Of a DNA stretch of 26,925 nucleotides, positions 1 to 10,035 are shown piece by piece. A program made the translations under genes and the position numbers. Position 1 is the first letter of the stretch; every line of letters starts with the position of its first letter. The notes under the pieces are model-generated. The model was not told the origin of the DNA, made no database searches, and saw only the letters and a program-made list of their open reading frames with translations. Source of the stretch: a virus; the IMG/VR virus record IMGVR_UViG_3300010885_072684, positions 1-26,925 of that record; one strand, written 5' to 3'.

Positions 1-924
1 GCTTCTCGTGCTGCTCTCGGTGGTCAGAAGGCTTTCATGGATGCTACTAAATTCCTAGTGGCAAACATGCTCCGTTCTATGGCTAAGAAGCTTGAAATCG
101 AAATGCTTTATGGCCAAGTTGGTTACGCTAAAATTGATGGCGCTCTTGTTGCTGCAACTACTCTTCCAATCAAAGCTGCTGAATGGGCACCTGGGATTTG
201 GGCAGGGGCAGAAGGAATGCCTATCGAAGTCCGCGATGCAACAACTGGTGCTCTAAAAGCATCTGTTAAAGTTCAGTCTGTTGACATGGAACTACAAGAA
301 ATCGTTGTCGATGGTCCAGTGACCAGCGCAGATGGCGATATTATTTGGCACAAAGGTGCTTATGGTAACGAGTTTGCTGGAATTCACAAGATTCTAACCG
401 TTGCCTCTGGTTCACTTTTCAACATTGATGTTGGAACTTATAACCTTTTCAAAGGTAACAGCTACTCTGCTGGAACTGCTGCGCTCTCCTTTACCAAGCT
501 TGGGCAAGCAGCTACCCGTGCGGTTGAAAAGGGACAAGAAGGAACTCTTCTTTCCCTTGTTAACGTTCGTTCTTGGCAGAACATGCTCACCGATCAAGCT
601 GCTCTACGCAAGTACGATCAGAGCTACAGCCCTGCAAAAATGGAAAACGGAGCTAAGTCTCTCAAGTTCCATTCACAGAATGGCGAAATTGAAATCGAAC
701 CATCACTCTATGTTAAGCAGGGATATGCATATCTTCTCAACGTAGAAGATTGGATGCGCGTCGGTTCAACTGACATTACCTTCAAGCGCCCTGGACAGGG
801 TGAAGAATTCTTCCGCGATCTCGAAAACAGCGCGGCTTATGAACTTCGCCTTTACACCGACCAGGCTCTTTTCTGTCAGGCTCCTGGCCGCAATACAATC
901 ATCACAGATATTGTAAACTCTTAA
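1..924 (+). CDS. Major capsid protein, 5'-truncated by window edge
   Basis: The reading frame is open from base 1, so the gene starts upstream and 307 residues are visible before TAA at 922-924. An ATG at 37 is internal: the codons before it encode ASRAALGGQKAF in the same frame. The soluble mixed alpha/beta sequence, with an Ala/Gly-rich N-terminal helix (ALGGQKAFMDATKFLVANML) and no low-complexity or membrane segments, fits a phage major capsid protein of the HK97-fold type. The very different codon use supports this: all of roughly 27 Leu codons are CTN and all Arg codons are CGN, whereas the following genes favour TTA and AGA, as expected for the most abundant virion protein. A strong terminator follows directly. 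Identification as MCP is by remembered family resemblance plus position ahead of the fibre and connector genes; another abundant head protein is the main alternative. Confidence 0.75.
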   Translation, partial: ASRAALGGQKAFMDATKFLVANMLRSMAKKLEIEMLYGQVGYAKIDGALVAATTLPIKAAEWAPGIWAGAEGMPIEVRDATTGALKASVKVQSVDMELQEIVVDGPVTSADGDIIWHKGAYGNEFAGIHKILTVASGSLFNIDVGTYNLFKGNSYSAGTAALSFTKLGQAATRAVEKGQEGTLLSLVNVRSWQNMLTDQAALRKYDQSYSPAKMENGAKSLKFHSQNGEIEIEPSLYVKQGYAYLLNVEDWMRVGSTDITFKRPGQGEEFFRDLENSAAYELRLYTDQALFCQAPGRNTIITDIVNS

Positions 925-1502: not shown

Positions 1503-2774
1503 ATGGCGTTAGATTTTCGTAAATTTACAGAAGGATTAAGGATTTTACCCAAAGCATCCCTAACTACTGTTGATATTGAAAAGGGCGACCTTCAAGTAGC
1601 GGACGACGCTGACGGAAAACTATATTATAACAATGGTTCTTCTACTTCTCCTATTGTTACAGAAGATCATACTGCCACGCTTATAAATAAAACAATTGAT
1701 GGTGATGACAATACCATTCAAGATTTAGGATTAGCATCACTTAAAACTGTTTTGTTGGATGCAAATAAAACAATACGAAGAAATGCATCTGGTGATGTTA
1801 TTTCTGGTAATGATTTACCTAATTCTAGTCAAATTGTTACATTAGATTCAACTGATACTTTAACAAATAAAACACTAACTTCTCCAATTTTAAATACACC
1901 ATCTACTGACACTATTTTAGGAATTGCTGGTGGTGGATTAACAATTCAATCGGCACCAAATCAAACATTATCAATACTTTCAGCTGGAACGGGTAATGTT
2001 TCAATTCAGTCTGCTGGAACTGCTGTTTCAATAGAACAAGTATCTTTTAATGGTAATGTTGTAACCGGTGGTGGTAGCAGTGCCTTAACGCTTCAATCTG
2101 GCTTAAATCAAAATTTATCAGTTCAAGCACAAGGAACAGGTATCGCGGATATAGCCTCTAAATTTTCTCTTTCTTCAATTTTAAATAATCAGTCTGGATC
2201 AGATCAAACTATTTCAACAACAACAAAGCCATATATAAAACTAACAAATTCTAGTTTAGCTTCTATTGGCGGGATTACAGCATCATCTAATGATGGTCAG
2301 TTTGTGATTTTGACAAATTCAACAAGTAATCCAGTTGTTATTTTAAATGAATCCGCTGGAGCAACGGCAAGTGATAGGATTGTCACTGGAACCGGAGGCA
2401 ACACGACAATTTCGGCAGATGGCAGCGCCTTGTTAATATATAACACAACAAGTTCTAGATGGCAAATTGTTAGTGTTGTTCAAGCTTCTTCTATTCCTGC
2501 CCCTTCCATCACAACAATTACAACATCAACAGCTTTAACTGGATCTAATGATTATGTATTAGTTAATGGAACTGGAGTTACTGTGACACTACCAAATCCA
2601 AACACCCTAACTCCAGGCAAAACCTTTGCAATTAAAAAAATATTTAATGATGTTATCGCTGTTACAATAAACACTGCATCTGGAACAATTGATGGTGGTG
2701 CATCAAAAACAATTGCAACACGCTATCAAGCATTAACAATTACAACAGACGGTACAAATTACTTTATAATTTAA
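1503..2774 (+). CDS. Tail-fibre-like protein, cassette copy 1
   Basis: 423 aa, rich in T, S, N and G, predicted beta-structured. N-terminus MALDFRKF...EKGDLQV...DGKLYYNNGSSTSP-VTE-H-ATL-NKT is the typical repeated LTNKTL-type fibre sequence, with a second copy near residues 115-135 (DTLTNKTLTSPIL). The middle has two copies of a LT-IQS-x-NQ-LS-x-x-x-GTG repeat (about 137-220). The C-terminal domain (about 330-423: VTVTLPNPNTLTPGKTFAIKK, VTI-x-TASGTIDGGA, TDGTNYFII) is a common fibre end domain. It is paralogous over its whole length to the gene at 3778-5118. SD AGAGG lies 5-6 nt upstream. It is probably a trimeric fibre or fibre shaft acting with the tip protein encoded 8 nt downstream. Confidence 0.8.
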   Translation: MALDFRKFTEGLRILPKASLTTVDIEKGDLQVADDADGKLYYNNGSSTSPIVTEDHTATLINKTIDGDDNTIQDLGLASLKTVLLDANKTIRRNASGDVISGNDLPNSSQIVTLDSTDTLTNKTLTSPILNTPSTDTILGIAGGGLTIQSAPNQTLSILSAGTGNVSIQSAGTAVSIEQVSFNGNVVTGGGSSALTLQSGLNQNLSVQAQGTGIADIASKFSLSSILNNQSGSDQTISTTTKPYIKLTNSSLASIGGITASSNDGQFVILTNSTSNPVVILNESAGATASDRIVTGTGGNTTISADGSALLIYNTTSSRWQIVSVVQASSIPAPSITTITTSTALTGSNDYVLVNGTGVTVTLPNPNTLTPGKTFAIKKIFNDVIAVTINTASGTIDGGASKTIATRYQALTITTDGTNYFII

Positions 2775-2782
2775 GGTATCAT

Positions 2783-3367
2783 ATGAGCTACACTCCGAAC
2801 CAAGAAAAATTTATTATAGACACAACCGGCCAAATTACAGGTAATCAATTAGTTGATGCAACAATAACTGAAACAAAAATTGCTAATTCTGCAATCACGG
2901 AATCTAAAATTGCAAGCTCGGCGGTGACAGAAGTTAAAATAGGGAGTGCTGCTGTTACAGAGGCTAAGATAGGTAGTGCTGCTGTAACGACTGCAAAAAT
3001 TGCCAATGTTGCTGTTGATAACACTAAAATTGCAAGCGCAGCGGTAACAAGTACCAAATTGGCAACCGGCGCAACAGAAAGAGATTGGGTTTTGGCTAGA
3101 ACAGCAGCAGCTAGTGTAGGAGTTGTTGGTTCTTATGCTATGTTAGCTGATACAACTTTGGGTACTGGGTTTACCTATGCTCCCGGTGCAACTATTAGTG
3201 GTAGTAATGTTTTTTTTGGTGGAATAGGTTATTCTTCAGCAAGCCCAACTACATATAAGTTTTCAACTACACCTTCAGGAACTTGGAGATGTATGGGTTA
3301 TTTTGATGCGGATTCGGCAACTCTCACGGTTGTTAGCGCAATAACTTTGTGGATTAGAATTTCATAA
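2783..3367 (+). CDS. Fibre tip/receptor-binding-type protein, cassette copy 1
   Basis: 194 aa. N-terminus MSYTPNQEKF-x-IDTTGQI is shared with the protein at 5128-5664. Residues 27-96 are seven tandem 10-residue units of the form AVTxxKIxSA, a repeat typical of phage fibre necks. The C-terminal domain (about 105-194) has GSYAMLA, GTWRCMGYFD and a final LWIRIS, a combination recognisable as a common fibre tip of dsDNA phages and prophages. The tip domain is unrelated to that of the paralogue, so the two proteins probably present different binding surfaces. SD AAGGT is 6 nt before the ATG. The receptor-binding role is inferred from position and domain type. Confidence 0.75.
   Translation: MSYTPNQEKFIIDTTGQITGNQLVDATITETKIANSAITESKIASSAVTEVKIGSAAVTEAKIGSAAVTTAKIANVAVDNTKIASAAVTSTKLATGATERDWVLARTAAASVGVVGSYAMLADTTLGTGFTYAPGATISGSNVFFGGIGYSSASPTTYKFSTTPSGTWRCMGYFDADSATLTVVSAITLWIRIS
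2861..3070 (+). repeat. Seven 30-bp coding repeats (10-aa AVTxxKIxSA units)
   Basis: In-frame tandem repeat inside the fibre-tip gene. The seven units are TITETKIANS, AITESKIASS, AVTEVKIGSA, AVTEAKIGSA, AVTTAKIANV, AVDNTKIASA and AVTSTKLATG. DNA copies differ mainly at synonymous and variable positions, so the repeat is old and maintained at protein level. The paralogue at 5128 keeps only about two units. Confidence 0.9.
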
Positions 3368-3376
3368 GGATTTAAT

Positions 3377-3775
3377 ATGAAAAAAACAATTCAATATGCA
3401 AAAAATCCTAAATTTGTTAACTTAGAAAAAAATGCAATAGATCTTATTGTTAAATTTGATGAATTTGAAGAAGAATTACCCTTTACTGCAACTCCTTATG
3501 ATGAAATGTCATATGGTGTTGATTTATATAATCGTGCTCTTTCTGGTGAATTTGGTCAAATTGAAGAATTTGATAACAGTAAATATCAAGAAATTTTAAA
3601 AGCAAAAGTTAGACTTCAGCGCAATCAATTATTATTTTCAACTGATTGGACGCAAATGCCTGATGTTCCAGAATCAATAAAAAATAAGTATATTTTATAT
3701 CGTCAAAAACTTAGGGATATTCCACAGCAAGAAAGCTTTCCTGAAAATGTTATTTGGCCTGAATTGGAATCTTAA
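3377..3775 (+). CDS. Phage tail assembly chaperone (Phage_tail_APC-like)
   Basis: 132 aa. The C-terminal half carries the signature of the small fibre-assembly chaperone family (PF16778-type): RNQLLFSTDWTQMPDVP at about residues 82-98, YRQKLRDIP at about 108-116, and a closing FPENVIWP. The N-terminal half (about 1-75) is a more variable acidic domain. Such proteins help fold or attach tail fibres and are normally encoded next to fibre genes. Here the gene sits exactly between the two duplicated fibre cassettes, with SD AAGG before the start at 3377 and a 2-nt gap to the next gene. Family assignment is from remembered motifs; which fibre it serves is unknown. Confidence 0.8.
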   Translation: MKKTIQYAKNPKFVNLEKNAIDLIVKFDEFEEELPFTATPYDEMSYGVDLYNRALSGEFGQIEEFDNSKYQEILKAKVRLQRNQLLFSTDWTQMPDVPESIKNKYILYRQKLRDIPQQESFPENVIWPELES

Positions 3776-3777
3776 TT

Positions 3778-5118
3778 ATGGCACTAAATTTTCGTAAATT
3801 TTTAGAAGGCATTAAAATAGTACCCAAATCCTCGTCCACTGCAAGTGAAAAGGGGGATATTGATGTTACTTCTGGGGATGGAAAATTAAATTACCATAAT
3901 GGGACTTCTTCTTCGCCGGTTGTAACTGAAAATCATCAAGCAACTCTTGAAAATAAGACTTTAACAAATCCAACAATTGACAATATTAACGGGGTGTCGG
4001 GTTCTGGATTTTCAATAACAGCAGATGCTGATGTTCTTATTAATGTTGATTTGGGTAATTTTAGTGCTACTACCACAAATGGTGGTGGTGTTTTTATATC
4101 TTCAGATGAGTCGGCTGGTGGATCTTTTCAATATAATAATGGAACAAGTTCTTCGGCTGTTGTAACTGAATCTCATTCTGCAACACTCACTAATAAAACA
4201 CTCACAACTCCTATTGTTAATACATCTATAACAGGTGGAGCTTCGGATCAATTGACAGTTCAATCCGCGTCCAATCAAAACCTATTATTAAGATCACTGG
4301 GAACTGGTGATGTTAATATAAGAACAGATGGATCGGGATCTACTAATATTGAAGACGTTATTTTTAATAATACAGCAATTAGTTCTTTTGAACAAGATTT
4401 GAGTTTGTCCTCGGATGTTGATTTATATTTACAAGCTGGTAGTAGTGTTTATATTAATCCCTTTTATAATACGGTAGTTCTTGGGAGGCTTCTTATTGTA
4501 GCGCCTCCTGTTTTTTATGTTAAACAAACTATCACCTCAAGCGGTTCAAATGTTTTACTTCCAGTTTTAACATCTTCATATGCTGAACTTACCAACAGTT
4601 CATTGGTGAGTATTGATACAATACCCGTTGGTAATTCGGGACAATTTGTTGTTATTATGAATTTGACTGGAAATTCTATTATTATTAACAATGACACGGG
4701 CGGAGCATTTCCAGAAAGACGTATTTTGACTGGCACTGGTGGAAGTGTTTCATTACCAAATAAAGGAAGTGCAACGCTATTTTATAGCATCACCGATAAT
4801 AGATGGCATATTGTTAGCCTGACACAAGTATCTTCAATTCCAACACCATCAATTACAACCATCTCAGCAAACACCTCACTAACGTCGTCTAATGATATTG
4901 TTTTAGTTAATGGGACCACTGTTACAGTCACCTTACCAAATCCAACAACACTTTCCCCAGGAAAAACATTTGATATTAAAAAAATATCTGCTACTGGTAA
5001 TGTTGTTACAATAAATACTGTGTCTGGGACAATTGATGGTGACGCGTCTAAAACAATCCCAACACAATATCATTCTTTAAGAATTACTACCAACGGTGTA
5101 AATTATTTCTTAATTTAA
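3778..5118 (+). CDS. Tail-fibre-like protein, cassette copy 2
   Basis: 446 aa, paralogue of the protein at 1503-2774. It shares the start MALNFRKFLEGIKI, the EKGDI-x-V...DGKL-x-Y-x-NG unit, an LTVQSASNQNLLLRSLGTG repeat (about 158-176) and the full C-terminal domain (about 355-446: VTVTLPNPTTLSPGKTFDIKK, TVSGTIDGDASKTI, TTNGVNYFLI). The NGTSSS-x-VVTE-x-H-x-ATL-x-NKTL block occurs twice, near residues 40-67 and 117-145, an internal duplication that copy 1 has only in degenerate form. The ATG follows the chaperone stop by 2 nt with only a weak upstream GGA, so translational coupling is likely. Role inferred: structural fibre component. Confidence 0.8.
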   Translation: MALNFRKFLEGIKIVPKSSSTASEKGDIDVTSGDGKLNYHNGTSSSPVVTENHQATLENKTLTNPTIDNINGVSGSGFSITADADVLINVDLGNFSATTTNGGGVFISSDESAGGSFQYNNGTSSSAVVTESHSATLTNKTLTTPIVNTSITGGASDQLTVQSASNQNLLLRSLGTGDVNIRTDGSGSTNIEDVIFNNTAISSFEQDLSLSSDVDLYLQAGSSVYINPFYNTVVLGRLLIVAPPVFYVKQTITSSGSNVLLPVLTSSYAELTNSSLVSIDTIPVGNSGQFVVIMNLTGNSIIINNDTGGAFPERRILTGTGGSVSLPNKGSATLFYSITDNRWHIVSLTQVSSIPTPSITTISANTSLTSSNDIVLVNGTTVTVTLPNPTTLSPGKTFDIKKISATGNVVTINTVSGTIDGDASKTIPTQYHSLRITTNGVNYFLI

Positions 5119-5127
5119 AGGTTATTT

Positions 5128-5664
5128 ATGGGCTATACTAAAAATCAAGAACAATTAAATTTAAACACAGATGGAACCATACCAACTAATACAATTGCCA
5201 ATGGTGCCGTTGATGGAACAAAAATTGCCAGCAATGCCGTTGATTTAACTAAGCTTGTAGCGAAAGCGGTGGGCACCTCAGTCGGAACCGACGGGGTTGC
5301 ATATGCGGGATCAAGTGGTACAGTTAGTCTTACATCGACCACCAGGACTACAGTAACAAATCAATCTGTAACAATAACAACAACGGGAAGGCCTGTTATT
5401 TGTTTTATTTCTTTACAAGGAAACGTTAGCCAAGCCACTAGAGTCTCAACCAATGGTAATGTTAATTTTTATTTACTTAGGGGTTCAACTACTATTGGTG
5501 TTGCTCAATATTCAACTACAACCGGATCAATTACCTCGTATCTTCAACTTTTAACATTGGATCAACCCTCTGCTGGTGCTCACACATATAGTTTAGAGTA
5601 TGCTATAAGTGCTGGGGTGACCGCCACCGCCTCGGGAATAAGATTAACCGTACTTGAATTATAA
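5128..5664 (+). CDS. Fibre tip/receptor-binding-type protein, cassette copy 2
   Basis: 178 aa. The N-terminus MGYTKNQEQLNLNTDGTIP and a short KIA-type repeat (about 24-50: TIANGAVDGTKIASNAVDLTKL) are homologous to the protein at 2783-3367. The C-terminal domain (about 60-178) is different: a beta-sandwich-like fibre tip with TVTNQSVTITTTGRPV, FYLLRGST, DQPSAGAHTYSLEY and a closing RLTVLEL. This is a second common type of phage fibre tip. Common base plus exchanged tip is what recombination between receptor-binding genes produces. SD AAAGG upstream. Binding target is unknown. Confidence 0.75.
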   Translation: MGYTKNQEQLNLNTDGTIPTNTIANGAVDGTKIASNAVDLTKLVAKAVGTSVGTDGVAYAGSSGTVSLTSTTRTTVTNQSVTITTTGRPVICFISLQGNVSQATRVSTNGNVNFYLLRGSTTIGVAQYSTTTGSITSYLQLLTLDQPSAGAHTYSLEYAISAGVTATASGIRLTVLEL

Positions 5665-5686: not shown

Positions 5687-6118
5687 ATGAACTCTCAAGA
5701 ATTATTTTTAAAATTAGTAGCACAATTAAGAAGTTTACAAATTTATTATCAGGCAGCACATCACAATGTTAAAGGATCTCTTTTCTTTCAAGATCACGGC
5801 GCTCTTGGTGAGTTTTATGACGCTCTACAAGACGAATATGATAGAGCTGGTGAAAAATATGTATCTCTTTATGGAGCATACAATATTAATCAAGTAATGC
5901 AAATGGTTATGGCTTCTATGCAAGGTATGCCAGCTGGTGAAGTAAAAGAAAACAAAGATTACTTTACTGCGCTCCTTGGAAAAGAAAAAGAACTATGTTC
6001 TATGGTCGATACTCTTGTTCGTCAAGGCGGATACAGCGAAGGATGTAAAAATCTTGTTGCTGATATTGGAACGGCGAGCGAGGGAAGACAATATTTAATT
6101 AAACAAAGGATTAAATAA
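5687..6118 (+). CDS. Dps/ferritin-like protein
   Basis: 143 aa. Residues 25-56 align without gaps to the ferroxidase region of Dps (DNA-protection-during-starvation, iron-storing dodecameric ferritins): [20 protein letters not shown] then [13 protein letters not shown]25, H37, D52 and E56 match E. coli Dps H51, H63, D78 and E82, while the position of D67 is Gly (G41, followed by E42). Length is close to a minimal Dps, without an extended DNA-binding N-terminal tail. Apart from the first 17 residues, Leu codons are mostly CTN, as in the capsid gene, suggesting high expression. SD AAAGG precedes ATG 5687, and the stop overlaps the next ATG. Possible roles are iron/peroxide handling, DNA compaction or a virion component; sequence alone cannot choose. 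A non-catalytic ferritin-like fold is the alternative. Confidence 0.75.
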
Positions 6119-6282
6119 TGCCCCTTAAAAAAGGCTCGAGTCAACAAACAATTAGTGAAAATATTAAAACTCTTGTTGGGGAAGGCCGAGACCCCAAACA
6201 AGCAGCAGCTATTGCCTATCAAAAAGCGGGGAAATCTCGAAAATTTTCTAAAACAAAACAAAGTTTAAAAAAGGATAAATAA
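6118..6282 (+). CDS. 54-aa basic protein (MPLKKGSS-type small phage protein)
   Basis: ATG at 6118-6120 overlaps the Dps-like gene stop by one nucleotide (TAATG), and TAA is at 6280-6282. The product begins [20 protein letters not shown], continues [20 protein letters not shown] and ends in a Lys-rich tail. Tiny proteins with the same plan (KKGSS, I-x-x-NI, PKQA-x-AIA, KAGKS) are widespread in phages. Their function is not known to me; the high positive charge would suit nucleic-acid or capsid-interior binding. It is translationally coupled to the Dps-like gene. Confidence 0.85.
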
Positions 6283-6284
6283 TT

Positions 6285-6554
6285 ATGGCTATTACACAAA
6301 AACCACTTTCACACTTAGATTACGAACAAACATTACAAAGTTCATATAATGATGAAAATGCCACCCTCAGTGTTGATGGATTTTTGACTGGTAAGGTTGG
6401 CCGTAAGGTTGAGCTTGCCGTTTCAACAACTGCTGTTTTAGATGATACTGAAACTTATACATTTTCGGAAAACGGGACGCCTCTTTATCAAATTCAAATA
6501 ATATATACAGACGGTACAAGATCCTTAATGGTTTCGGCTGAACGTATTTCTTAA
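6285..6554 (+). CDS. 89-aa phage protein of unknown function
   Basis: The product begins MAITQKPLSHLDYEQTLQSS and has a beta-rich second half (YTFSENGTPLYQIQIIYTDG). The DG-x-L-type strand pattern and its place directly before the large fibre suggest a small virion or fibre-associated protein, but no family is recognised with certainty. SD AAGG (in AAAAAAGGATAAATAATT) precedes the ATG at 6285, and a 10-nt gap with a strong SD leads to the next gene. No signal peptide or membrane segment. Confidence 0.75.
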   Translation: MAITQKPLSHLDYEQTLQSSYNDENATLSVDGFLTGKVGRKVELAVSTTAVLDDTETYTFSENGTPLYQIQIIYTDGTRSLMVSAERIS

Positions 6555-6561
6555 TAGGTGA
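6552..6561 (+). promoter_or_regulatory. Stop-linked ribosome binding site TAATAGGTGA
   Basis: The TAA stop of the 89-aa gene is the start of TAATAGGTGA, whose AGGTGA core lies a few bases before ATG 6565. The same 10-mer occurs at 11217-11226, again beginning with a stop codon and again 3 nt before an ATG. A near copy (TAATAGGTGT) lies at 10048-10057. It is a recurrent SD box of this phage. Confidence 0.7.
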
Positions 6562-6564
6562 GCT

Positions 6565-9500
6565 ATGAGCATAAAGTTTAATCCGCTTATTTTTGGAGGT
6601 TTTGATTTAACTGGTGGAGGTGCTGCTGGTGCTCCTCAATGGAAAACTCCTGTTCCAGATGAAGCATCTCTTCCTATGTCGGGGAATTCTGCTGGAGATG
6701 CTCGTGTTGTTCTTGATACAGACAAGATTTATATATGGGATGATGCAACGTCTAAATGGATTGATACTGAATTAACTACATTAGAAGTAGGAAGTTCACC
6801 AAATTTAGAAGGTATTACATTATCTACTTTTGATGAAAATGTCAGTGGTGTTGATATTACCCGCCCTGCTATTAATTTAGAGCCAGCAGATGAATCAAAT
6901 CCTGGTGTTATTACAACTTCTACACAAACATTTGCTGGAACTAAAACATTTTTAAATGATGTAGTAGTTGAAGGTTCTGTTGATGTTTACACTACAATCG
7001 AATCTTCTTCTGGGAATTTAGAATTAGGTAATAGCACTGCTGATATTAATATCGGTTCGGCTGGATCTACTTCTAATATTATAATTGGTGATAGTTCAAC
7101 CACTGTTCAAATTAGTTATAATCCAGCCGATCCCGCTGATTGGAATCCGGTTCCTAGTTATTTAATTGATGGAGTTGATCAACTTGCTGACCGAACTTAT
7201 ACATTAGAGAGCAACGCGGTTGTACAGAAAGAACCGACTGGATTTCCAAATAGAACAGACTCATCTATATCTTTTTCTGATTCTTCTCCCGATAGAACGT
7301 TTACAATTTCTCCTACCGGTGGATCTTTTGATTTTTATGTAAAAAGTAAAAAATTTACAAAATCGGCGCCCGACTCAATTTCTCTTCCTAATTTATCCGG
7401 AAATCATTATATTTACTATGATGATGCTGGTTTTTTACAATCAACACAAGTTTTTACGGCTGCGTTAGTACAAGACAATGCTATTGTATCTGATGTTTAC
7501 TGGAACCCCGATACAAATTTACACACCTATTTTGCCGAGGAACGCCACGGCGTTGTTATGGATGGTGCTACTCATGCATACCTCCATACTGTCTTTGGTG
7601 CAAGATATTTAAGCGGATTAGCTTTACAGGGTTTTACAATGGGCAGTGGAAACACAAACGCAGATGCCCAATTTACTTCTGATCAAGGCACAATTAGAGA
7701 TGAAGATATAATTCATCAACTTCCAGCTTTATCTCAAATTCCAATTCTTTATCGAATTGGTCAGAATTGGAGGAAAAAGGCAGCAGATGCTTATCCATTA
7801 ATCTATAGTGGAACAGCTGGTTATGTTGGTGCAAACGGAAGAATTCCTTATAATCAATACACCGGTGGTGCTTGGCAATTAACACAAGTTGCCAATTCTG
7901 GTTTCGTATTAGTGCATTTTTTTGGGACAAATGACATTGAAAACGGTGTTGTTGGTGTTCAAGGTATTCAAACTTATAATAGTGTTTCGGCAGCAAGAAT
8001 TGGTGCAAACGTTGAAATCAGTAGTTTGTCTGGTCTGCCTTTTGCGGAATTTGTTCCTATTGGAAGTGTTATTTTTAAAACTGCCAACAGTTTTAGTAAT
8101 GCTGTAAAAGCAATGGTTTTACCCACTGATACGGGCGCGGATTACGTCGATTTCCGTGGTACACAATTATATACCCCCGCCGGAGAGGCGACTACACACG
8201 GTTTATTGAGTGGTCTTGCAAACGATGACCATTTTCAATATTTATTGGTGTCTGGAACTCGCGCAATGTCTGGTGCTCTTGATATGGGCACACATCAAAT
8301 AAATAATGTCGTTGATGGGGTGGCTTCTGACGACGCTGCTACTGTTGGACAACTTACAGATGCCATTACTGACTCCCCTGGAACGTTCGCTGGTTTTGAT
8401 TTTACAACAGGCGTATTGTCACCGGTTCCCGGTTGGGTATTTGATAATAATGGGTCTGCTCAAATCGGGGCTCAAAATTCATTAATAATTCCAGCCGGAA
8501 CAACAGACTTTACAACACTAACTTTAACTCCAACCGTTTTAAGTTCCGGGTTAGCAAATTTTTCACAAATTAATATAAATCCACAAATAGATCAACCCGT
8601 CAATAATTATACAGCAGTTCAATCTTATGGATATGGAACAAGTGCTCCTAATAATTACAACGGGTTTTTATCTCAGCCACAATTTACTGGAATGGTGGAT
8701 AATTTAACACATTTTAATATTGCTGGCAATCCCACTGCTAACAATTTAACTGGAATTAATTACACACCAACATCAGATTCTGGGTTTGAAATAGTAATGA
8801 ATATTTCTCCCAGCGGAGACACTACTGATTTTAAAGGTGTTATGATTACGCCCAGTGGTGATTCTGATTTATTTAATGGTGTTATTGTTGCTCCGTCTGG
8901 ATCGGGTGCAATTTTTAAGGGTTTAAATATATACGGCACTTCAACATATGACGATGTAACCGGTATTGAAATTAATCTTTCAAATATAACATCAACATCT
9001 AGAAAAAAAGGTATTACTGTTGAAGATGGTGTTATTCAACAAAATAATACTTCTTTAACAACAATATCTTCTTTACCGACATTAGTGGATTCTGCGAATT
9101 TATTCAGAAATGTGTTCACTGTAGAAGCTTCTGCTCCTATTAGTGGAACAGATATTATATTAAATAACATGTCGTGTGAATTGGTTATTGACGATAATTA
9201 TTCACCGTCTCCTTTAAATCTAGGAATTAATTCCGCTGGGTTTGTAGGTCAAGTTTCGGTTGAAGCTGGCAAACAAGCTGATATTGTTTCAATGTCAACA
9301 GCTGGATTCGCTGTTCCGGCAACGAGCAACGGTGGTTTAATTGGGCAAGCGCACATGTATCGCACAACTGGTCCGCTTGATTTTGGTGGTGCCCTAACCA
9401 TTAATGAAATGTATGGATTAAGAATAGAGGATGGTCTTTCTAATTTTACTTCGGGTGCAACTTGGGGTGTTTCCGTTGAAGACGCTAATGCTGAAAATTA

Positions 9501-10035
9501 TTTAGCTAAATCTCTTGTTATTGGTGGAATAGATAAGACGACCACTTCCGATGAAATGGCATTGGAAATAGCCGATGCTAAAACAATTAAAGTTGGTTAT
9601 GTTACAACAGCAGAAAGAACCGCATTAACTAATATAGCCGGTTCTATTGTGTATGACACGGATTTAAATAGATTTTTTGGAAATGACGGTAGTCAATGGA
9701 TTCAATTAAATCTATCTCTTGGTGATTTAGACAGGGGTAGCCCCCTTTCCCTAACGCCCGCTGGTGCTCCGACCGATATAACTGGATTTTCTTTTTCATC
9801 ATTGAATGTTAAAGGTTTTGAGGCGATTGTTTCAGTATCAAGAACTAGCCCAACTGATTTATATGCGGAGTATACATTAAAGGGCATCTATAAAGGATCT
9901 TCTTGGGAAATGAGCCAAGATTACATCGGGGACGATACTGGAATTGTATTTAATATAACAACAGCTGGACAAATTCAATATACACTAACTGCTGGTAATT
10001 CTGCTGATTTTACATTTAGAGCATCAACAGTTTAA
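6565..10035 (+). CDS. Large tail fibre protein (1156 aa)
   Basis: Multi-domain beta-rich protein. Around residues 25-70 a DEASLP...GD-x-RVV-x-DT-x-x-IYIWDD unit is typical of fibre N-termini. At about 118-138 there is STQTFAGTKTFLNDVVVEG; at about 150-175 S/G/N-rich strands; and at about 325-530 a larger domain with EERHGVVMDGATHAYLH and DEDIIHQLPAL. HGLLSGLANDDHFQYL (545-560) and AMSGALDMGTHQINNV are classic phage fibre motifs. Long T/S/N/G-rich beta repeats follow to about 1030, then FFGNDGSQWIQL, and the last about 80 residues form the domain shared with the 155-aa protein at 1026. SD AGGTGA precedes the ATG at 6565. It is probably the main adsorption fibre; an appendage or tail-spike component is possible. 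No depolymerase catalytic motif seen. Confidence 0.8.
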   Translation: MSIKFNPLIFGGFDLTGGGAAGAPQWKTPVPDEASLPMSGNSAGDARVVLDTDKIYIWDDATSKWIDTELTTLEVGSSPNLEGITLSTFDENVSGVDITRPAINLEPADESNPGVITTSTQTFAGTKTFLNDVVVEGSVDVYTTIESSSGNLELGNSTADINIGSAGSTSNIIIGDSSTTVQISYNPADPADWNPVPSYLIDGVDQLADRTYTLESNAVVQKEPTGFPNRTDSSISFSDSSPDRTFTISPTGGSFDFYVKSKKFTKSAPDSISLPNLSGNHYIYYDDAGFLQSTQVFTAALVQDNAIVSDVYWNPDTNLHTYFAEERHGVVMDGATHAYLHTVFGARYLSGLALQGFTMGSGNTNADAQFTSDQGTIRDEDIIHQLPALSQIPILYRIGQNWRKKAADAYPLIYSGTAGYVGANGRIPYNQYTGGAWQLTQVANSGFVLVHFFGTNDIENGVVGVQGIQTYNSVSAARIGANVEISSLSGLPFAEFVPIGSVIFKTANSFSNAVKAMVLPTDTGADYVDFRGTQLYTPAGEATTHGLLSGLANDDHFQYLLVSGTRAMSGALDMGTHQINNVVDGVASDDAATVGQLTDAITDSPGTFAGFDFTTGVLSPVPGWVFDNNGSAQIGAQNSLIIPAGTTDFTTLTLTPTVLSSGLANFSQININPQIDQPVNNYTAVQSYGYGTSAPNNYNGFLSQPQFTGMVDNLTHFNIAGNPTANNLTGINYTPTSDSGFEIVMNISPSGDTTDFKGVMITPSGDSDLFNGVIVAPSGSGAIFKGLNIYGTSTYDDVTGIEINLSNITSTSRKKGITVEDGVIQQNNTSLTTISSLPTLVDSANLFRNVFTVEASAPISGTDIILNNMSCELVIDDNYSPSPLNLGINSAGFVGQVSVEAGKQADIVSMSTAGFAVPATSNGGLIGQAHMYRTTGPLDFGGALTINEMYGLRIEDGLSNFTSGATWGVSVEDANAENYLAKSLVIGGIDKTTTSDEMALEIADAKTIKVGYVTTAERTALTNIAGSIVYDTDLNRFFGNDGSQWIQLNLSLGDLDRGSPLSLTPAGAPTDITGFSFSSLNVKGFEAIVSVSRTSPTDLYAEYTLKGIYKGSSWEMSQDYIGDDTGIVFNITTAGQIQYTLTAGNSADFTFRASTV

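Follow-up and report, generated by a model that had tools for sequence, protein, structure and literature searches.

Genomic context of a Dps-type gene

The window analysed here is a 26,925-nucleotide stretch of viral DNA (positions 1 to 26,925 of IMG/VR record IMGVR_UViG_3300010885_072684), and all features described in it lie on the plus strand. It begins with a major head protein gene whose 5′ end is cut by the window (1-924; phrog_14242, E = 1.4e-11), followed by a cassette of fibre-type genes (1503-5664) whose content varies between relatives. The cassette holds two long repeat-bearing proteins along with small fibre-like proteins, and includes a tail-fibre or fibre-assembly-like gene at 3377-3775 (phrog_1795, 6e-19; phrog_4912, 1e-17). 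Immediately downstream lies an open reading frame at 5687-6118 whose 143-aa product has family, profile, and fold matches to Dps-type mini-ferritins. It starts with ATG, 22 bases past the stop codon of the fibre-type gene before it, and AAAGG 5′ of the frame is a plausible ribosome site.

The stop codon of the Dps gene overlaps the ATG of the next gene (TAATG), which encodes a 54-aa basic protein with a pI of 10.3 (6118-6282; phrog_2423, E = 5e-21). Homologues of this protein occur in a Pbunavirus, between minor-head and other structural genes, and in a Leptolyngbya phage, where the homologous sequence opens a gene annotated as 'structural protein' between head-morphogenesis and capsid genes. 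A conserved 89-aa protein (6285-6554), which served as a marker for finding the same slot in other phages, and a 1156-aa fibre-like protein conserved in relatives (6565-10035) complete the neighbourhood. The latter contains a YadA-stalk-like stretch (2e-4, under the Pfam cut-off).

Promoter-like sites were no more frequent than in shuffled sequences, and terminator-like sites numbered 3 against 1.2 expected, those on the plus strand having poor T tails; a separate transcription unit for the Dps gene is therefore not demonstrable. PADLOC returned no defence-system match, and a defence role was dropped. The earlier note on this DNA had described the leucine codon use of the gene as capsid-like, which the counts contradict: the Dps gene uses 6 TTA and 9 CTN codons and the capsid gene 0 and 27, respectively (Fisher p = 0.001), and between the Dps gene and the other genes of the window the difference is only marginal (p = 0.047). 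The major head gene itself shows an extreme bias relative to all other genes in the window, with 27 CTN and no TTA or TTG codons.

Homology and predicted fold

The protein matches phrog_3636 (E = 1.6e-11), a family labelled as DNA binding protein, and phrog_858 (E = 3.9e-6). The NCBIfam Dps model NF006975 is matched at E = 7e-7, under the curated cut-off of the model, while Pfam DUF5856 gives a weak match and PF00210 (Ferritin) is reached by no sequence of the window lineage. A literature search found no paper that uses the term DUF5856. Identity to bacterial Dps and HP-NAP proteins is 20–23%, and a profile built from 27 viral homologues matches Dps chains in the PDB with a best E-value of 2.2e-10.

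An AlphaFold2 monomer model predicted from the 27-sequence alignment (mean pLDDT 86.6, pTM 0.83) contains helices at residues 3-27, 33-62, 68-78, 89-113, and 118-142, arranged as a four-helix bundle whose B–C connection contains a short helix. Such a short connecting helix is characteristic of Dps proteins. The top Foldseek matches in the PDB are nearly all Dps, many with TM scores of about 0.84–0.86, and VIA-align gives Z scores of about 17–18.6 against Dps chains. Bacterioferritins tie with Dps by Z score, so the assignment rests on sequence, the BC helix, and ligand positions rather than on Z. The translated sequence has no ExxH motifs of the bacterioferritin/ferritin intrasubunit di-iron site in the helix B and D regions, which speaks against a bacterioferritin or classical ferritin. 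With homology far above chance by phrog, NCBIfam, and PDB-profile searches, and with a predicted four-helix bundle resembling Dps, the proposal that a Dps-like ferritin adjoins the fibre genes is confirmed. The earlier note had named a predicted fold lacking such a bundle as grounds for refutation, and on that point the model upholds it.

A conserved putative metal site with an altered ligand

In a set of 29 distinct viral sequences (which includes the near-duplicates L030 and L031), residues H25, H37, E50, D52, E56, and E100 are invariant. Four of these, the putative iron ligands H25 (5759-5761), H37 (5795-5797), and D52 and E56 within the sequence DRAGE (5840-5854), align without gaps with the matching positions of NAP-type Dps, as the earlier note had proposed from their spacing. 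E50 and E100, together with a YLxxQR motif, form a signature of the viral lineage.

An acidic residue (Asp or Glu) four positions after the second His is the usual, though not universal, fifth ligand of Dps proteins. As previously noted, the window protein has Gly instead (Gly41, 5807-5809); the aligned NAP chain carries Glu at this position. Among the 29 viral homologues this position is occupied by E in 12, Q in 7, G in 6, D in 2, and S and M in 1 each, and this variation means that it is no defining feature of the viral family. Position 26, where most Dps proteins have Trp, is W in 24 and H in 5 of the 29, the five His belonging to the window lineage (H26, 5762-5764 in the window). Gly41 (5/5 sequences) and His26 are thus both fixed within the window's own lineage. 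The substitution at position 41 would leave the site without one of its usual acidic ligands, D52, E56, and the two His being retained. The adjacent Glu42, considered as a possible substitute, is ruled out by its lack of conservation (E, D, D, D, and G in the window, L003, L004, L005, and L006, respectively). Sequence and general knowledge of Dps proteins suggest that His26 could participate in the site.

Relatives, selection, and the gene slot

Relatives were found by scanning viral contigs with the window protein and then with alignments. One is nearly identical to the window protein (L002), close relatives (L003-L008) share 77–84% identity, and distant relatives (L022-L053) share 22–32% and lie in many cases on contigs of 60–485 kb. 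No cellular relative emerged from two motif-based scans covering 85,000 species genomes; a recent origin from a host gene was set aside for want of a donor in these scans, which can miss distant Dps. By capsid protein, the closest isolated phage is one of Silvanigrella aquatica (28.7% identity over 99%), and is too distant for a host to be named.

The Dps gene of the window lineage evolves under purifying selection: well-separated copies give pairwise dN/dS values of 0.08–0.13 and the closest pair 0.22, figures that are rough because synonymous sites are near saturation. Gene order in related contigs is fibre cassette, Dps, an inserted gene in some cases, small basic protein, 89-aa protein, and large fibre-like protein. 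The Dps gene remains about 80% identical between relatives whose upstream fibre genes change. Counting each population of these related freshwater phages once, the gene is intact in five, always at the same slot, broken in one, and absent in one. The broken copy (L008, 6001-6425), interrupted by an in-frame TAA at codon 69 and shifted in frame by one base near codon 122, may reflect decay or an assembly error. The relative without Dps (L060), found through the 89-aa neighbour, has three other small genes (3824-4992) in place of Dps and its neighbour, indicating that the slot is exchangeable. Given one relative without the gene and one with a broken copy, Dps is not essential to this type of phage; the gene is accessory yet maintained.

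Several relatives carry inserted genes around this slot. Between Dps and the small basic gene, L003 encodes an HNH endonuclease (6436-7158) and L005 a near-identical frame (6433-7155), and in L004 a different frame (6875-7618) precedes the large fibre gene. The small basic proteins in the slot behind Dps belong to differing N-terminal families and share a C-terminal motif resembling KFSKTKxxxKK or RFKKTKKMLxK, found in the window (6118-6282), L004 (6429-6593), L006 (6260-6436), and two genes of L060 (3824-3982 and 4645-4992).

Fused Dps domains in distant relatives

In several jumbo phages, long open frames containing Arg/Lys-rich stretches terminate in the Dps domain. Of 12 N-extended sequences, 9 have the motif [KR]xA[SAC] 5–8 residues ahead of the Dps domain, and of 8 sequences with C-terminal extensions of more than 10 residues, 6 have it 1–6 residues past the domain; as these sequences are related, they do not count as independent events. 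We infer that the motifs at the domain edges are putative protease sites and that the fused frames resemble a processed precursor. The window protein has neither an extension nor the motif. Elsewhere among the distant relatives, the Dps gene lies about 3.5 kb after a major head protein (L040) or adjoins terminase and portal genes (L052), and three viral fold matches bear the name prohead protease. A literature search recovered no dedicated paper on a phage Dps released by prohead protease.

Frames with a C-terminal Dps domain range from 360 to 1040 aa and share a linker (RDRVLPLPSGHP...); they were seen in L028, L030, L032, L034, L044, L046, L047, L048, and L051, with the Dps frame ending near position 6400 in most. 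Several neighbouring proteins have LRxxLIxLAxxxPxLRxxLLPLL in common as an N-terminal pattern, with [KR]xA-type motifs no more than a few residues beyond it (L027, 3957-4865; L029, 3918-4865 and 4879-5697; L032, 6424-8040; L052, 1715-2452 and 2515-3663), and this pattern is perhaps a targeting tag. In two large phages, a GroEL-like frame recognised by eye lies near the Dps gene (L009, 5151-6698; L050, 8248-9882).

Candidate roles of the phage Dps

Bacterial Dps proteins shield DNA from iron-driven damage. We consider it probable that the window protein forms an iron-oxidising Dps cage that is produced late and, in the course of infection, clears Fe2+ and peroxide. A small hollow cage would form from its subunits, and at each two-fold interface Fe2+ would be held jointly by H25 and H37 from one subunit and D52 and E56 from its partner. 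Fe2+ would be oxidised with peroxide or oxygen, and the ferric product would pass into the cage interior. The position of the gene within a structural gene block suggests that the protein would be made late, during particle assembly, when reduced iron-driven oxidation in the infected cell might protect phage DNA and proteins and prolong production. Homology, predicted fold, invariant ligands, purifying selection, and the conserved slot support this reading, as do the published cases of phage Dps or ferritin with a proposed role in oxidative stress, and we further infer the cage, iron oxidation with the altered ligand, late expression, and the benefit to the phage. Counted against it are the unmatched PF00210 and the missed NCBIfam Dps cut-off, as well as the loss of an acidic ligand through Gly41 and of Trp26, and the two relatives in which the gene is absent or broken. 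Of the roles offered by the earlier note, protection in infected cells fits best.

That Dps is carried inside the virion or on it, either as an internal head protein or as a small cage that protects the packaged DNA or enters the next host with it, is unlikely on present evidence; such a role may itself be compatible with iron oxidation. The overlap of the gene with the start of a phrog_2423 protein, whose homologues sit among head genes, is consistent with packaging, as are the proximity of distant-relative Dps genes to head genes, the polybasic frames that end in a Dps domain with [KR]xA[SAC] before or after it, and the prohead protease names of some viral fold matches. The Dps-domain protein gp67 of phage SU10 was moreover detected when a phage preparation was analysed by mass spectrometry, but that preparation was PEG-precipitated rather than CsCl-purified and contained DNA polymerase and other non-structural proteins (PMC4281155). 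The window protein, for its part, lacks the extension and the motif, and its leucine codons differ from those of the capsid gene. A broader version, in which many environmental phages, the window group included, build a Dps cage into the particle, is likewise doubtful: the protein would be cut from a polybasic precursor as the head matures in jumbo phages, and made in the window lineage as a free subunit together with the small basic head-type protein. If this were true, the particle itself would supply the DNA's protection against iron and peroxide. The locus makes it testable whether phage iron-handling proteins serve the infected cell only or are also carried in the particle.

A Dps fold that has abandoned iron chemistry and now serves fibres or tail as a structural component or chaperone is improbable. 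The loss of acidic residue 41 and Trp26 throughout the lineage and the placement of the gene after a fibre or fibre-assembly-type cassette would suit such a role, but all distant homologues retain the other four ligands, the gene is under strong constraint, and Dps is conserved between relatives while the upstream fibre genes change. Least credible among these is a Dps that compacts the DNA of host or phage, either alone or together with its 54-aa basic neighbour, as the label of phrog_3636 and the strongly basic neighbour might suggest. The Lys/Arg-rich DNA-binding tail is present in some Dps only, and DNA protection by some Dps involves no DNA binding. Such an N-terminal tail is missing from the window protein, whose predicted helix begins at residue 3 and whose pI is 5.9 (5.9–6.8 across the lineage), so that compaction by this protein alone, another of the roles first proposed, fits poorly. 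Iron supply to fibres or tail, also suggested there and of the Ferrojan-Horse type, was rejected, as gene position is all that speaks for it and the literature consulted on it mentions no phage Dps.

Comparison with known phage Dps proteins

Like bacterial Dps and HP-NAP, the window protein has a predicted subunit fold with a BC helix and the H25-H37-D52-E56 spacing in NAP-type numbering. It differs in having Gly at the fifth ligand and His for Trp at position 26, in lacking an N-terminal basic tail, and in its own E50/E100/YLxxQR signature. Since phage Dps and ferritin genes have been published, this kind of gene is already known, and many entries in viral protein tables are already named Dps. 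Three things set the window Dps apart: its altered site (Gly41, His26), its fixed slot within a fibre cassette, and a viral lineage signature for which the two motif scans turned up no cellular counterpart. To the known phage Dps proteins it adds a lineage that is conserved and under selection, has an altered iron site, and is encoded in a structural block and not among replication genes.

Phage Dps has been described in kuraviruses (PMC4281155), where gp67 of SU10 shares the Dps fold and has the ligand pattern HW...H...D...D...E. Unlike the window protein, gp67 is canonical in sequence at all five ligand positions and has an N-terminal extension; it is the product of a middle gene that lies among DNA-metabolism genes and adjoins thioredoxin, whereas the window gene lies in a structural block. 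The Lactobacillus phages Semele and Bacchae encode a ferritin-like DNA-binding protein with a proposed role in oxidative stress (PMC6669764), located, unlike the window gene, near replication and repair genes; a tblastn search of these phages with the window protein gave no match at E ≤ 1. Two further cases resemble the window Dps by description. The DPS of 'Gratiaviridae', phages of Bacteroides in the human gut, is proposed to give the host greater tolerance of oxidative damage (PMC8008677). In freshwater phages, which share both habitat and ferritin type with the window, one report, whose main-text passage gives neither gene position nor metal-site analysis, lists ferritin among oxidative-stress genes and proposes protection from reactive oxygen (PMC6802176).
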